Shown: positions 37,752 to 42,144 of the stretch, one piece after another
Position numbering within the stretch: the first letter of the stretch is position 1
How the letters are laid out: each line of letters begins with the position of its first letter
Assembly: GCA_025924315.1 (NCBI GenBank)
Contig: JAICIO010000002.1
Coordinates: 1-64,000 of the forward strand
Direction: 5' to 3'
Length of the DNA stretch: 64,000 bases
From: Phycisphaerae bacterium
Lineage (GTDB): Bacteria; Planctomycetota; Phycisphaerae; Tepidisphaerales; Tepidisphaeraceae
Notes under the pieces: model-generated
Told to the model about the DNA's origin: nothing
The model's input: the letters and a program-made list of their open reading frames with translations, nothing else
Databases searched by the model: none
Made by a program: the position numbers and the translations under genes

Positions 37752-38675
37752 TTAGCCCTTCATCGCTTCCACACCGCCCATGATTTCTGACAGCTCGGTC
37801 GTGATCTGGCTCTGGCGGGCGCGGTTGTATTGCATCGACAAGGCCTTGACCATCTTGTCCGCGTTGTCCGTGGCGCTCTTCATGGCGACCATTCGCGCGA
37901 CGTGTTCGCTGGTGGTGGCGTCGAGGAACGCCTGGAACAGCGCCGTGCGGACGGTGAGCGGAAGGATTTCGTCGAGCAGTTCCGTGGCCGACGGGGAGAA
38001 ATCGTACATCGTCTGCGCGTCGTACGCGGGGCCTCGTTGAGTTCCACCCGTCGCGCCGGGCTTGGCGCCTTCGCCTTCACTCTGCACGCCGGCGAGCGGG
38101 AGCAGCGTCATCACGTCCGGCTTTTGCTGGCCGGCGCTGATGAAGTTCACGTACGCGACGTAAACCGCGTCGTATTTGCCGGCGATGAAGTCGGCCATGA
38201 ACTGGTTTGCGAGTTTCTCCACATCCACGAACTTCGGCGTGTCCTGGGCATCGATGCGCTGAGCGATCGGGCGCTTCTGGAAGTTGAAGAAGCTGTAGCC
38301 CTTCTTGCCGACGACATACAGGTCGATCGCGTTGCCGGCGGCCTCCTGCTCGCGCACGAAATGCTGGGTGCGGCGCAACACGCTGCCGTTGTACGCGCCG
38401 GCGAGACCTCGATTGCTCGTGATCACGAGCAGCGCAATTCGATTCTTGCGATCCTCGGCCGTTGGACGACGCAGCAGTGGATGCTCAACGTTGCCAACGC
38501 TCGCGGCCAGCTCGCGCACGAGCTCGCGAACCTTTTGCGTATAAGGCTTGGTGCCGATCGCGCGCTTCAGCGATTTCTGGAACTTCGCCGTCGCGATCAT
38601 CTGCATCGTCTTGGTGATTTTCTTGATGTTCCGCACCGCCTTGCGGCGCTTCACAATCGCACGTGCCTTGGCCAT
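37752..38675 (-). CDS. atpG: ATP synthase F1 gamma subunit
   Basis: ATG at 38675 starts 'MAKARAIVKRRKAVRNIKKI', the invariant N-terminal helix of gamma, continuing 'TKTMQMIATAKF'. The C-terminal helix 'VAMKSATDNADKMVKALSMQ' and 'YNRARQSQITTELSEIMGG' are also intact. About 307 residues, slightly long because of a Gly-rich insert near residues 205-235. It is the rotating central stalk of F-type ATP synthase. None of the other subunits is in the neighbourhood: the gene is flanked by a Wzz-like gene and a divergent MerR gene, so the operon is split here. Confidence 0.96.
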   Translation of the reverse strand: MAKARAIVKRRKAVRNIKKITKTMQMIATAKFQKSLKRAIGTKPYTQKVRELVRELAASVGNVEHPLLRRPTAEDRKNRIALLVITSNRGLAGAYNGSVLRRTQHFVREQEAAGNAIDLYVVGKKGYSFFNFQKRPIAQRIDAQDTPKFVDVEKLANQFMADFIAGKYDAVYVAYVNFISAGQQKPDVMTLLPLAGVQSEGEGAKPGATGGTQRGPAYDAQTMYDFSPSATELLDEILPLTVRTALFQAFLDATTSEHVARMVAMKSATDNADKMVKALSMQYNRARQSQITTELSEIMGGVEAMKG

Positions 38676-38787
38676 TTCATCCTCAGTCAGAGCACACTTT
38701 TCGGGCCGCAAAATGTAAGAGAATTGGGATGAAGATGCAAACCCGCGGCAATTCGCCGCAGCGGGCTGGCTGCGTTAGAATGGTGAC

Positions 38788-39198
38788 ATGCAGACTTACA
38801 CGATCGGTCAGCTCGCTCGATCTGTCGGCGTCCCCATTTCCACCGTTCGCTACTACGAACGCGCCGGACTCCTCAAACCCGAAGCGCGCACGGGCGGCAA
38901 CTACCGCGTCTATTCGCAGCATTCCCTCGAACGGATGCAATTCATCCGCTCCGCCCAGGCTGTCGGTCTCAGCCTTGACGACATCGAGAAAATGCTTGAC
39001 ATCGCCCACGGCTCCGAGCAGCCGTGCGACGAGATCGTCACCCTCGCGCAACAGCGTCTCGACGAAGTGCGCGAAAAGCTCAAGGATCTGAAGACCGTCG
39101 AGAAAACCCTCGCCAAAGCCGTCGCCAACTGCTGCAACGAAGAGGTGGGCCTGTGCAGCAAAGTCGTCCATCTGAGAAAAATCTGCCAAAGGGCTTGA
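38788..39198 (+). CDS. MerR-family metal-sensing regulator, ZntR-like
   Basis: The product has 136 residues. The MerR winged helix is 'TIGQLARSVGVPISTVRYYE' then 'LLKPEARTGGNYRVYS' (residues about 5-43), followed by the dimerisation coiled coil. Metal ligands are likely C80, C115/C116 ('ANCCNEEVGLC'), C123 and C133. The spacing of C80, the CC pair and C123 matches ZntR (C79, C114/C115, C124), so Zn/Cd/Pb-type divalent metals are more likely than Cu(I). Its stop lies inside the -35 of the downstream promoter. It is divergent from atpG. Confidence 0.93.
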   Translation: MQTYTIGQLARSVGVPISTVRYYERAGLLKPEARTGGNYRVYSQHSLERMQFIRSAQAVGLSLDDIEKMLDIAHGSEQPCDEIVTLAQQRLDEVREKLKDLKTVEKTLAKAVANCCNEEVGLCSKVVHLRKICQRA

Positions 39199-39226
39199 CC
39201 CTGCACCATGGTTCAACCTCTAGGCT
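39195..39226 (+). promoter_or_regulatory. MerR-type promoter with 20-bp spacer
   Basis: -35 TTGACC (39195-39200) and -10 TAGGCT (39221-39226) are separated by 20 bp instead of 17, the distorted spacing that MerR proteins untwist. The spacer holds the near-palindrome TGCACCATGGTTCA. The expected transcription start near 39233 is about 18 bases ahead of the small Cys-rich ORF. Confidence 0.85.
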
Positions 39227-39250
39227 TCTTTCATACAGAAAGGAGCTTCC

Positions 39251-39340
39251 ATGAAGCGCATCCATCTCGCGATTGCGTGCTGCGACGACGGCGAATGCTG
39301 CCCGGATTGTCCGGACTGCCCGCCGTGCCCGAAATGCTGA
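39251..39340 (+). CDS. 29-residue cysteine-rich peptide, metallothionein-like
   Basis: ATG at 39251 has a strong ribosome site (AAGGAG, six to seven bases upstream) and the ORF ends TGA at 39340. Eight of 29 residues are Cys: C10, C11, C16, C17, C20, C23, C26, C29. The C-terminal third is the periodic run 'CPDCPDCPPCPKC'. A CC pair sits in the middle ('AIACCDDGECC'). The N-terminal nine residues, 'MKRIHLAIA', are mildly hydrophobic but too short for export. It is the first gene behind the MerR-type promoter, before the MIP channel. No family was recognised. A metal-binding or metal-delivery role is inferred from composition and position. It is not in the frame of the overlapping MIP 5' extension. 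Confidence 0.78.
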   Translation: MKRIHLAIACCDDGECCPDCPDCPPCPKC

Positions 39341-39405
39341 CACGCAACCATTGCAATGCCCGACGCGACTGCAGCGCGCCGGGCGCTGCTTCGATTCAAG
39401 TAGAC

Positions 39406-40065
39406 ATGAACAAACTTCTCGCCGAAGCGATCGGCACTTTTGCGATGGTCTTCGCCGGCACCGGCGCGATCATCATCAATGACGTCACCGCCGGCGGCGT
39501 GACACACGTCGGTATCGCGATCACGTTCGGGCTGGTCGTGATGGCGATGATCTACGCCGTCGGTGACGTCTCGGGCGCGCACCTGAACCCTGCCGTCACG
39601 CTCGGCTTCCTCGCCGCGCGACGAACGACCGCGCGCTGCGCCATTGGATACATCATCGCGCAATTGATCGGCGCGCTTGCGGCAAGTGCCATCCTGCGCC
39701 TGCTCTTCCGCTCACATGGAAACCTCGGCGCAACAATTCCGCTCGGCTCAGACCTGCAGTCGTTCATCCTCGAAACGATCCTCACCGCCATCCTGATGTT
39801 CGTGATCCTCTCGGTTGCGGTCGGCTCGAAAGAACGCGGTCTGATGGCCGGCATCGCAATCGGCGGAGTGATCGGCCTCGAAGCGATGTTCGCCGGCCCG
39901 ATCTGCGGCGCGTCGATGAATCCCTTCCGCTCGCTCGCCCCCGCGATCGTCTCCGGGCATCTCGCGCACGTGTGGCTCTACCTGATCGCCCCGCCGCTTG
40001 GCGCACTCATCTCCGTCCCCCTCTGGCGAGGCGTCTACAATCATGAGGGCAAGCAGGATGAATAA
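39406..40065 (+). CDS. MIP-family channel (aquaglyceroporin-like)
   Basis: ATG at 39406 starts 'MNKLLAEAIGTFAMVFAGTG', the MIP beginning; an upstream in-frame extension back to 39208 reads through the Cys-rich ORF region and is rejected. About 219 residues, six membrane helices. The first pore motif is 'GAHLNPAV'. The second is 'GASMNPFRS', where NPF replaces the usual NPA. MIP channels in arsenic operons let arsenite out of the cell. Here it sits between the Cys-rich peptide and the arsenate-reductase-like gene, which supports that reading. Its end overlaps the next gene by eight bases. Confidence 0.9.
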   Translation: MNKLLAEAIGTFAMVFAGTGAIIINDVTAGGVTHVGIAITFGLVVMAMIYAVGDVSGAHLNPAVTLGFLAARRTTARCAIGYIIAQLIGALAASAILRLLFRSHGNLGATIPLGSDLQSFILETILTAILMFVILSVAVGSKERGLMAGIAIGGVIGLEAMFAGPICGASMNPFRSLAPAIVSGHLAHVWLYLIAPPLGALISVPLWRGVYNHEGKQDE

Positions 40066-40465
40066 GAAACGAATCGTCTTCGTCTGCGTCGAGAACTCCA
40101 ACCGCAGCCAGATGGCGGAAGCGTTCGGGCGAATCCACGGCGCAGACGTCGCGGAAGTTCACAGCGCCGGCTCCCGCCCCAGCGGCATCGTCAATCCCAA
40201 AGCCATCGCCGCCATGGCCGAAAAGAACTACGACCTCACAACGCACCAATCGAAATCGCTCGACGATCTTCCCCAAATGGAATGGGACTACGCCATCACA
40301 ATGGGCTGCGGCGACGAATGCCCCAACCTCCGCGCCAAGCACCGCGAAGACTGGACGCTGCCCGATCCGAAACACCTCCCGCCCGATCAGTTCAACCACA
40401 TCCGCGACGAGATCGAATCTCGCGTGAAAAAGCTCATTGACACGTTTTCATCGCATGCTCGTTGA
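40058..40465 (+). CDS. arsC: arsenate reductase-like LMW phosphatase
   Basis: ATG at 40058 gives 135 residues. The LMW phosphatase P-loop is 'FVCVENSNRSQMAEAF' (C-x5-R). A second cysteine pair follows in 'MGCGDECPNL', matching the thioredoxin-linked arsenate reductase pattern, then 'REDWTLPDPKHLPPDQF'. This family is called ArsC in operons where it turns arsenate into arsenite for export through MIP or ArsB. It is translationally coupled to the MIP gene. A different phosphatase role is possible, since the reaction cannot be read from sequence. Confidence 0.88.
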   Translation: MNKKRIVFVCVENSNRSQMAEAFGRIHGADVAEVHSAGSRPSGIVNPKAIAAMAEKNYDLTTHQSKSLDDLPQMEWDYAITMGCGDECPNLRAKHREDWTLPDPKHLPPDQFNHIRDEIESRVKKLIDTFSSHAR

Positions 40466-40480
40466 CCTATACTCTGGTCA
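40463..40480. promoter_or_regulatory. candidate operator dyad
   Basis: TGACC (40463-40467) and GGTCA (40476-40480) are inverted repeats spaced by TATACTCT. The site overlaps the end of the arsC-like gene and the start of the next gene and includes a TATACT that could be a -10. Confidence 0.45.
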
Positions 40481-40866
40481 TGTCTGTGCGGCTGGCGACA
40501 CTTGTTTTGATGGCGTGGACCAACATCTATTGTTGCTGCACCGCGCCCGCCGCGACGATCGCGACGCAGGCGAATCATCCGAAACACGCCTGCTGTGCCG
40601 ACAAACCGACCGCGCCCGAAACGCCGCAGCATCGCATGCCGGACGGGCGGAAATGCAATCAATGTCCGTATCTGGCAATTCGTCAGAACTCGCTGCTCGA
40701 GGATGCGCAGCCGACCGTACCTTCGCTCGATCTAGTCGCCTTCGATCCGGTAATTGAACCGGCGTCATTCTCACTCGTCGCCTCAATCACAACTCAAGAT
40801 CGCTCCACCGAGGCCATCCCCATCTCCGTCACGCTTCTCGACCTGAGCACCTCTCTCGTGCGCTGA
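40480..40866 (+). CDS. exported Cys/His-rich protein
   Basis: ATG at 40480 gives about 128 residues. An N-terminal hydrophobic segment (about 4-16) precedes three consecutive Cys, then 'HPKHACCADKP' and 'RKCNQCPYL', seven cysteines and several His by residue 62. The rest is hydrophilic with no motif. Such pattern suits a periplasmic or surface metal-binding protein. It follows arsC by 14 bases and precedes an HMA lipoprotein. No family recognised. Confidence 0.65.
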   Translation: MSVRLATLVLMAWTNIYCCCTAPAATIATQANHPKHACCADKPTAPETPQHRMPDGRKCNQCPYLAIRQNSLLEDAQPTVPSLDLVAFDPVIEPASFSLVASITTQDRSTEAIPISVTLLDLSTSLVR

Positions 40867-40923: not shown

Positions 40924-41271
40924 ATGTACAGGTATGTACTCATTCTCGCATTGCTTCTTCTCATCGCCGGGTGTCAGAGCACCAGACCCGGCGATCCCAT
41001 GCCCGAGCCGACGACGGCTCCCACCGCATCGTCGCAGCCTCTCGCTGGCTCGAGCGCCACGCTGGTCGTCAACGGCATGGCCTGCCCGATGTGCAAGAGC
41101 AACATCAACGACCAGTTGCTCAAGATCCCCGGCGTGAACAAGGTCAAAGTCAATCTCGGCACCGGCGAAGTGGCCGTGAACTTCAAGCCCGACGTTCACC
41201 CGACGCGTCAGCAGCTGGCCGCCGCGGTCGAGCAAAGCGGGTTCACGCTTCGCGAGATTCGTCAGCCCTAG
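40924..41271 (+). CDS. HMA-domain lipoprotein
   Basis: ATG at 40924 has GAGG six bases upstream, so it is preferred over the GTG at 40912. About 115 residues: lipoprotein signal with lipobox LIAGC (Cys17), a Pro/Thr/Ser linker, then a heavy-metal-associated (ferredoxin-like) domain with 'MACPMCKSNIND' and 'VNKVKVNLGTGEVAV'. The CxxC binds soft metals. Being lipid-anchored, it could pick up metal in the periplasm and pass it to an efflux channel. The next gene is an outer-membrane beta-barrel. Confidence 0.9.
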   Translation: MYRYVLILALLLLIAGCQSTRPGDPMPEPTTAPTASSQPLAGSSATLVVNGMACPMCKSNINDQLLKIPGVNKVKVNLGTGEVAVNFKPDVHPTRQQLAAAVEQSGFTLREIRQP

Positions 41272-41286
41272 GAAGGAGCGCACAAC

Positions 41287-42144
41287 ATGAACTCTCATCC
41301 CCGCACGGGATGCCGCGCGCTCGCTGCGCTCGTCATCACCCTTGTCGCCTCGCCTGCGCTCTTTGCGCAGGAAGGCATCTTCACGATGGCTGCCACCGAG
41401 CCCTCCACCGGCGTGTGGATGTTCCGCCAGCAGGTGCAGTATCTCAGCCTGAGTCGCGATCCCACGCCGCTCAAGCGCGACGTGACCGAATGGCGAAGCC
41501 ACACGATGCTCGCCTACGGACTCACGCCGAGTATCTCCGCCATGGTGATGGTCCCCGCCGTCTATCGCGACGTCAGCAGCTCCGTCGCGGGCGAATCGTT
41601 TCTGGCCAAAGGTCTCGATGACCCGCTGCTGATGGCCCATTGGCGCGTCTACCAAAACCATTCCGGCCCCATCGACACGACGCGCTTCAGCCTGATGACC
41701 GGAGTGAAAGTTCCGGTCGGCGCTCCCGACATCTCCGCCGGCCGGTTTGAGCCCGTCTTCGGAGGGATCTTCACCTTCATCCGCGGCAGGCATGGCGCCG
41801 ACTTTACGCTCGAGTACGAATTCAACACCGGTGGATTCGCCAACCCCATCCGCGCCGGCGACGGACAAGATGACGCCATCTACTACAACGCAGCGTATCT
41901 CTATCGCCTGTTCCCAGCGCAATACACCGCCGACACGAGCGAAGGCGCGTGGTATGCGCTCGTCGAGATGAACGGCACGTACGAAACCGACGGCGACAAC
42001 GAGATCCTGATCGCCCCCGGCATCATGTTCGAGGGCGGCCGCTTCGGCCTCGAATTCGGCGTGCAATTGCCGGCCTGGCAACGCATCGAGCATCGCCCCA
42101 AGACCGACTTCAACTTCACCGTTGGTCTGCGGTTGCTCTTCTGA
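41287..42144 (+). CDS. outer-membrane beta-barrel protein
   Basis: The product has 285 residues, a signal peptide (about 1-27, ending LFA) and a beta-strand-rich body that ends in 'VGLRLLF' with the C-terminal aromatic of outer-membrane barrels. It resembles the 'MetA-pathway of phenol degradation / transporter' family of small barrels often found beside metal genes: 'EWRSHTMLAYGLTPSISAMV', 'TGVKVPVGAPDISAGRFEP'. The ribosome site AGGAG is about six bases upstream of ATG 41287. It follows the HMA lipoprotein by 15 bases and is likely in the same operon. Confidence 0.75.
   Translation: MNSHPRTGCRALAALVITLVASPALFAQEGIFTMAATEPSTGVWMFRQQVQYLSLSRDPTPLKRDVTEWRSHTMLAYGLTPSISAMVMVPAVYRDVSSSVAGESFLAKGLDDPLLMAHWRVYQNHSGPIDTTRFSLMTGVKVPVGAPDISAGRFEPVFGGIFTFIRGRHGADFTLEYEFNTGGFANPIRAGDGQDDAIYYNAAYLYRLFPAQYTADTSEGAWYALVEMNGTYETDGDNEILIAPGIMFEGGRFGLEFGVQLPAWQRIEHRPKTDFNFTVGLRLLF

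Follow-up and report, generated by a model that had tools for sequence, protein, structure and literature searches.

Results

A cysteine-rich reading frame behind a MerR-type promoter

Positions 39251 to 39340 of the window (the whole stretch of 64,000 nucleotides that was analysed) hold, on the forward strand, an open reading frame that translates as MKRIHLAIACCDDGECCPDCPDCPPCPKC, followed by a TGA stop. The 29-residue peptide (29-mer) has eight Cys residues, at positions 10, 11, 16, 17, 20, 23, 26 and 29, arranged as CC-x4-CC and four overlapping CPxC units (CPDC, CPDC, CPPC and CPKC). With 8/29 Cys, it has the small size and very high Cys fraction by which a metallothionein is recognized. 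A Shine-Dalgarno sequence, AAAGGAG (39239 to 39245, forward strand; ribosome site GAAAGGAG), ends 5 nt before its ATG. The initial annotation had described this frame as eight Cys in 29 residues behind a strong ribosome site, and both the translation and AAAGGAG confirm it. Third-position GC is 0.79, comparable to that of the neighbouring genes (0.70–0.82). The peptide is without a signal peptide and should therefore act in the cytosol; a reading of its start, MKRIHLAIAC, as a signal peptide or lipoprotein was rejected, as this segment is too short.

The preceding gene (38788 to 39198, forward strand) encodes a MerR-family metal sensor of 136 residues (Pfam MerR_1, 2.7e-21), with Cys80, Cys115-Cys116 and Cys123 in metal-site positions. 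Its relatives in the PDB are CueR, CadR and MerR. The best NCBIfam match was TIGR02051 (MerR), at 108.7 bits under a cut-off of 150.85, and since every score against the NCBIfam equivalog models of named sensors (MerR, ZntR, CadR/PbrR and CueR) fell below its cut-off, the protein was not assigned to any of them. The opposite strand carries an ATP synthase gamma-subunit-like gene (37752 to 38711), which runs divergently from the MerR operon.

A MerR-type promoter/operator (39195 to 39226, forward strand) separates the two reading frames, with a −35 element (TTGACC) overlapped by the MerR stop codon, a 20-bp spacer containing the dyad TGCACCATGGTTCA, and a −10 element (TAGGCT). A spacer of 20 bp is abnormally long, as is typical of promoters that MerR proteins activate. 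The 29-mer frame begins 24 bases past the −10 element. A transcript starting about 7 bases past −10 would carry an 18-base leader with little in it but AAAGGAG, and the 29-mer is therefore the first thing that such a transcript can translate. The operator element, TTGACnnTnnACCnnnGTnCAnnnTnTA, had one match in the 6.57-Mb genome with up to 2 mismatches allowed; a reversed control pattern had no match anywhere in the genome. As the operator is unique in the genome, the MerR protein probably controls this operon alone. The same element occurs in 38 of 397 genomes of the class, mostly beside MerR genes. From its position, the single genomic operator is predicted to direct transcription to the 29-mer frame. 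The TTGACC–20 bp–TAGGCT promoter and the Shine-Dalgarno sequence directly upstream support the proposed place of the peptide at the head of a metal(loid) operon under MerR control.

Genes downstream of the peptide

All of the following genes lie on the forward strand. The first (39406 to 40065) encodes a NIP-like MIP/aquaporin of 219 residues (Pfam MIP, 1.2e-46), whose best PDB match is plant NIP2-1 (3.5e-39); its first channel motif is NPA and its second NPF. An N-terminal extension of this protein through the peptide region (a 285-residue frame from 39208) was rejected, because stop codons lie a short way before 39406 in three near homologues and because a start at 39208 would lie upstream of the promoter −10. 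The MIP stop is overlapped by the start of a gene for an ArsC-like arsenate reductase of the LMWPc type (40058 to 40465; Pfam LMWPc, 1.4e-19). The NCBIfam arsenate reductase models scored below cut-off for this protein, and arsenate reductases in the PDB matched it at 3e-22.

Between arsC and an HMA gene lies a gene for a small, probably exported Cys/His-rich protein of no family (40480 to 40866), with the sequence features CCCTAPA...HPKHACCADKP...CNQCPY. The HMA-domain protein (40924 to 41271; Pfam HMA, 1.6e-12) has a lipoprotein-like N-terminus (GMACPMCKSN), and is followed by a putative outer-membrane protein of 285 residues (41287 to 42144) with no Pfam match, which recurs beside MerR, Cys-rich and HMA genes. 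Relatives of the latter were found at loci L046, L047, L071, L115 and L116. The cassette of HMA protein and putative outer-membrane protein (40924 to 42144) recurs with MerR and Cys-rich proteins at L046, L071, L115 and L116.

Arsenic or another metal

In a tree of 48 MerR proteins, the window MerR grouped, with support of 100/98, with the MerRs of two genomes from its own taxonomic family. One of these two nearest MerRs (loci L102 and L103, genomes G022 and G020) precedes arsM and the other arsC-arsM, and the arsenite methyltransferase model NF008823 scored above its cut-off at both loci. In the metal-site loop, all three proteins share a CC pair and one more Cys (NCCNEEVGLC, SCCKGDGPDIC and DCCKGDSPSLC).

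Sequence matches place an arsenate reductase and an arsenite-permeable type of channel (ArsC and the NIP-like MIP) in one operon, the combination that marks an ars-type operon. No ACR3 or ArsB pump was detected in the genome, the assembly of which is about 97% complete. Rice Lsi1, a channel of the NIP2-1 type, carries arsenite both ways (PMC9510833), and MIPs of bacterial ars operons, which have no other pump beside them, are taken as the arsenite exit route (PMC4435449). The operon context points to arsenic rather than Zn or Cd, and further weight is lent to this reading by the MerR clade, the NIP-like MIP, ArsC and the failure to detect ACR3 or ArsB. The MerR clade and the ars genes beside its other members would favour As(III) over Zn or Cd as the ligand of the window MerR. 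On the other side stand the HMA protein and the exported Cys/His protein, which suit Cu, Hg or Zn as well as As. The MerR clade formed by the window protein (38788 to 39198), L102 and L103, standing before MIP-arsC, arsM and arsC-arsM, is a candidate natural arsenic-sensing MerR group; we found no natural arsenic-sensing MerR in the open-access literature.

Distribution of the peptide

Searches of 60 relatives, and then of 397 genomes of the class, 25 of them of the same family, gave no homologue of the 29-mer. Matches in the latter search had E values of 7e-4 and weaker and all fell outside short Cys-rich reading frames, the best of them inside the purM region of L336. PLSDB held no relatives, and the PDB no related sequence, only a chance match at 0.17. 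Nothing in Pfam, NCBIfam or PHROGs matched, and thus no metallothionein family model did; nor was a matching peptide found in the open-access literature. The 29-mer is known from one planctomycete genome only.

These searches in Pfam, NCBIfam, PHROGs, the PDB and PLSDB bear out the earlier statement that the peptide belongs to no family. The accompanying expectation of a conserved reading frame at the same place in relatives fails: there are no homologues in the 397 class genomes, and the slot of the 29-mer is filled by arsC or arsM at the two sister MerR loci. That the sister arsenic MerR operons manage without the 29-mer counts against reading it as a thiol peptide.

Coding potential and alternative functions

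Apart from the 29-mer, no ATG reading frame of 20–60 codons in the window combines 8 or more Cys with a Cys fraction of 20% or higher. DNA was simulated with Markov models of order 2 and order 5 that reproduce the window composition. There, a Cys fraction of at least 8/29 was reached by 2 of 882,765 ATG reading frames of 20–60 codons; among the 61,821 frames preceded by a Shine-Dalgarno-like motif, not one reached it. The Cys content is far beyond chance. On balance, the composition and placement of the frame incline us to regard 39251 to 39340 as a genuine gene, coding for a thiol peptide that is inducible, cytosolic and metallothionein-like. The product, very small as it is, probably binds arsenite or other thiol-loving metals in the manner of a metallothionein, because it is encoded by the first gene behind the sole such MerR promoter, just ahead of arsenic-detoxification genes.

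The position of the frame directly behind the promoter would also suit a leader peptide, in which ribosomes would stall at the eight Cys codons once thiol metals had run down the supply of Cys or Cys-tRNA, altering RNA folding and MIP-ArsC expression, with an inert product. Cys-rich leader reading frames have been reported as Cys-responsive attenuators in mycobacteria. A perfect 7-bp G+C hairpin (39371 to 39389, forward strand) lies between the peptide and MIP genes, and whereas the ribosome site of the 29-mer is strong and well spaced, the MIP gene has none. A leader might act through access to a Shine-Dalgarno sequence. However, the hairpin has no T tract, a terminator scan between the two genes found no terminator-like site of the kind expected of an attenuator, and folding was only mildly stable compared to shuffled sequences (z −1.6). 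Moreover, the Cys codons are mixed with Pro and Asp codons in CC-x4-CC and CPxC order rather than forming a plain Cys run, and MerR control is already present. We regard a leader peptide as unlikely.

The overlapping CPxC motifs recall those of glutaredoxin and thioredoxin and, with ArsC in the same operon, could suggest that the peptide does not store metal but serves as a small redox donor of thiols, either recycling ArsC or maintaining As(III) in its reduced state. We give this little probability: 29 residues cannot form a thioredoxin fold, and the adjacent CC pairs would fit metal binding too.

Cysteine-rich proteins in the same slot

A small Cys-rich reading frame with a ribosome site was found within 650 nt downstream in 21 of 45 MerR loci of the class (that of the window included), compared to 21 of 500 random stretches (4%), which were drawn from the same loci and may include the same Cys-rich frames. 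Two exported Cys-rich types recur in the slot, and neither has a Pfam or NCBIfam model. The first has the form (signal peptide)...RPDCPGKIVCPLTGELVCRDRCPL...SCC and the second the form ...CKNPQCTPKSPHCNQPGCKPGCC. With one or two units and the SCC tail, the exported RPDCPGKIVCPLTGELVCRDRCPL type directly follows MerR, ahead of any other gene, in many genomes of the class (L046, L054–L057, L060–L067, L104, L105, L110, L115, L119, L346, L354, L358 and L362). The CKNPQCTPKSPHCNQPGCKPGCC type was seen in one family of the class (L107, L111, L369, L370, L378, L381 and L383). At L058, the Cys-rich protein behind MerR is broken by an in-frame stop just before its Cys-rich part. The gene order at L046 and L115, MerR, Cys-rich protein, HMA protein and outer-membrane protein, agrees with the framework of the operon in the window.

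The 29-mer has neither the signal peptide nor the DCPG or CKNPQC Cys pattern of these proteins, and is the only Cys-rich protein in the slot that lacks a signal peptide. Sharing the slot, it might be an eroded or shortened form of them, possibly functionless, in which the short MKRIHLAIAC start is what is left of a signal or lipobox region. This is quite improbable. The 29-mer shows no alignable similarity to the exported proteins, in which the Cys spacing differs (DCPGKxxCPxTGxxxCxDxCP or CKNPQCxPKxPxC), its reading frame, Shine-Dalgarno sequence and stop are intact, and the operon already holds another exported Cys/His protein.

Tandem repeats of 9 bp whose translation gives CPx runs are common in genomes of the phylum and, among the matches listed, in GTDB genomes, where they are non-genic artefacts. 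As such repeats give CPx runs artefactually in many genomes, a CPx run alone is weak evidence, and matches to the patterns CPxCPx or CC-x4-CCPxCPxC (in GTDB, among those listed) were set aside as artefacts of this kind. That the window frame is itself untranslated spacer with a chance or repeat-derived CPx run, as such repeats and its lack of conservation would allow, has a low probability, given a chance of less than 1 in 60,000 per frame with a Shine-Dalgarno sequence, a CC-x4-CC that lies outside the repeat, CPDCPD units that have diverged (the first two differ only at two synonymous third positions), and a Shine-Dalgarno sequence and promoter that place the frame precisely.

Discussion

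We favour reading the 29-mer as an inducible, cytosolic, metallothionein-like peptide. Of the earlier interpretation, three points have stood: the placement in a MerR operon, the lack of any family and, as a prediction, metal binding. Conservation has not. The locus offers the reading frame with its Shine-Dalgarno sequence, promoter and single operator, an operon context, and ars genes beside the sister MerRs; upon these we infer a course of events from transcription and translation to ligand, binding and stoichiometry. The MerR-family regulator would bind As(III) or another soft metal through Cys80, Cys116 and Cys123 and untwist the 20-bp-spaced promoter. An mRNA with a short leader would then be made, with the 29-mer as its first cistron. 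The eight Cys of the peptide could bind about two As(III), using three thiolates for each, or else a small cluster of d10 metal ions, and the 29-mer would lower free As(III) until efflux, as an inducible cytosolic buffer or carrier. As(III) produced by ArsC, together with incoming As(III), would leave via the NIP-like channel, ArsC thereby feeding arsenate into the same exit route.

A more far-reaching version, which we put forward tentatively and with considerable doubt, is that a natural As(III)-sensing MerR drives this operon, that the 29-mer is an arsenite chaperone or buffer that hands As(III) to the NIP-like channel in a pump-free route, and that this exemplifies a broader tendency of planctomycetes to place Cys-rich mini-proteins at the head of MerR operons.

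If translated and metal-binding, the 29-mer would be among the smallest bacterial metallothionein-like peptides. If the proposed route is true, such a peptide would be tied to arsenic efflux through a channel, and the locus would point to an arsenic-sensing MerR clade, where the usual sensors are ArsR proteins. The first few hundred bases behind MerR operators hold, across the class, unnamed small Cys-rich proteins, most of them without a family model.

Comparison with known systems

Like the bacterial metallothioneins SmtA/BmtA, PmtA and MymT, the 29-mer is small, Cys-rich, expected to be metal-induced and without any other fold signature. Bacterial metallothioneins have about 50 residues or more, compared to 29 here, and usually show CxC spacing, whereas the 29-mer has CC and CPxC and stands in an arsenic-type operon. 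As far as its sequence tells, it would be metallothionein-like in its working, while being a member of no described metallothionein family. The fungal copper metallothionein of Neurospora has 25 residues with 7 Cys (28%), and is thus similar in size and Cys fraction, but it is eukaryotic and CxC-based, with no sequence relation to the 29-mer shown.

The exported planctomycete MerR-operon proteins (DCPGKIVCPxTGELVCxDxCP and CKNPQCxPK) are likewise small and Cys-rich and the first gene after a related MerR and operator; they differ from the 29-mer in having a signal peptide, a greater length and other Cys spacing.

The regulator of the Sinorhizobium ars operon is ArsR, whereas the window operon has MerR as its regulator and a Cys peptide added. 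The two have in common a pump-free arsenite exit through a MIP together with ArsC, to go by the account of AqpS and ArsC cited in PMC4435449.

In P. aeruginosa, the MerR-family protein CadR activates a small metallothionein-like protein, Zrd (PMC12301328). As here, a MerR-family sensor is paired with an overlooked small Cys protein for which metal sequestration is proposed, by prediction in the case of the 29-mer. Zrd has two zinc ribbons (CxxC-N10-CxxC) and is encoded apart from cadR, whereas the 29-mer is the shorter of the two and comes first in the operon directly downstream of its regulator.
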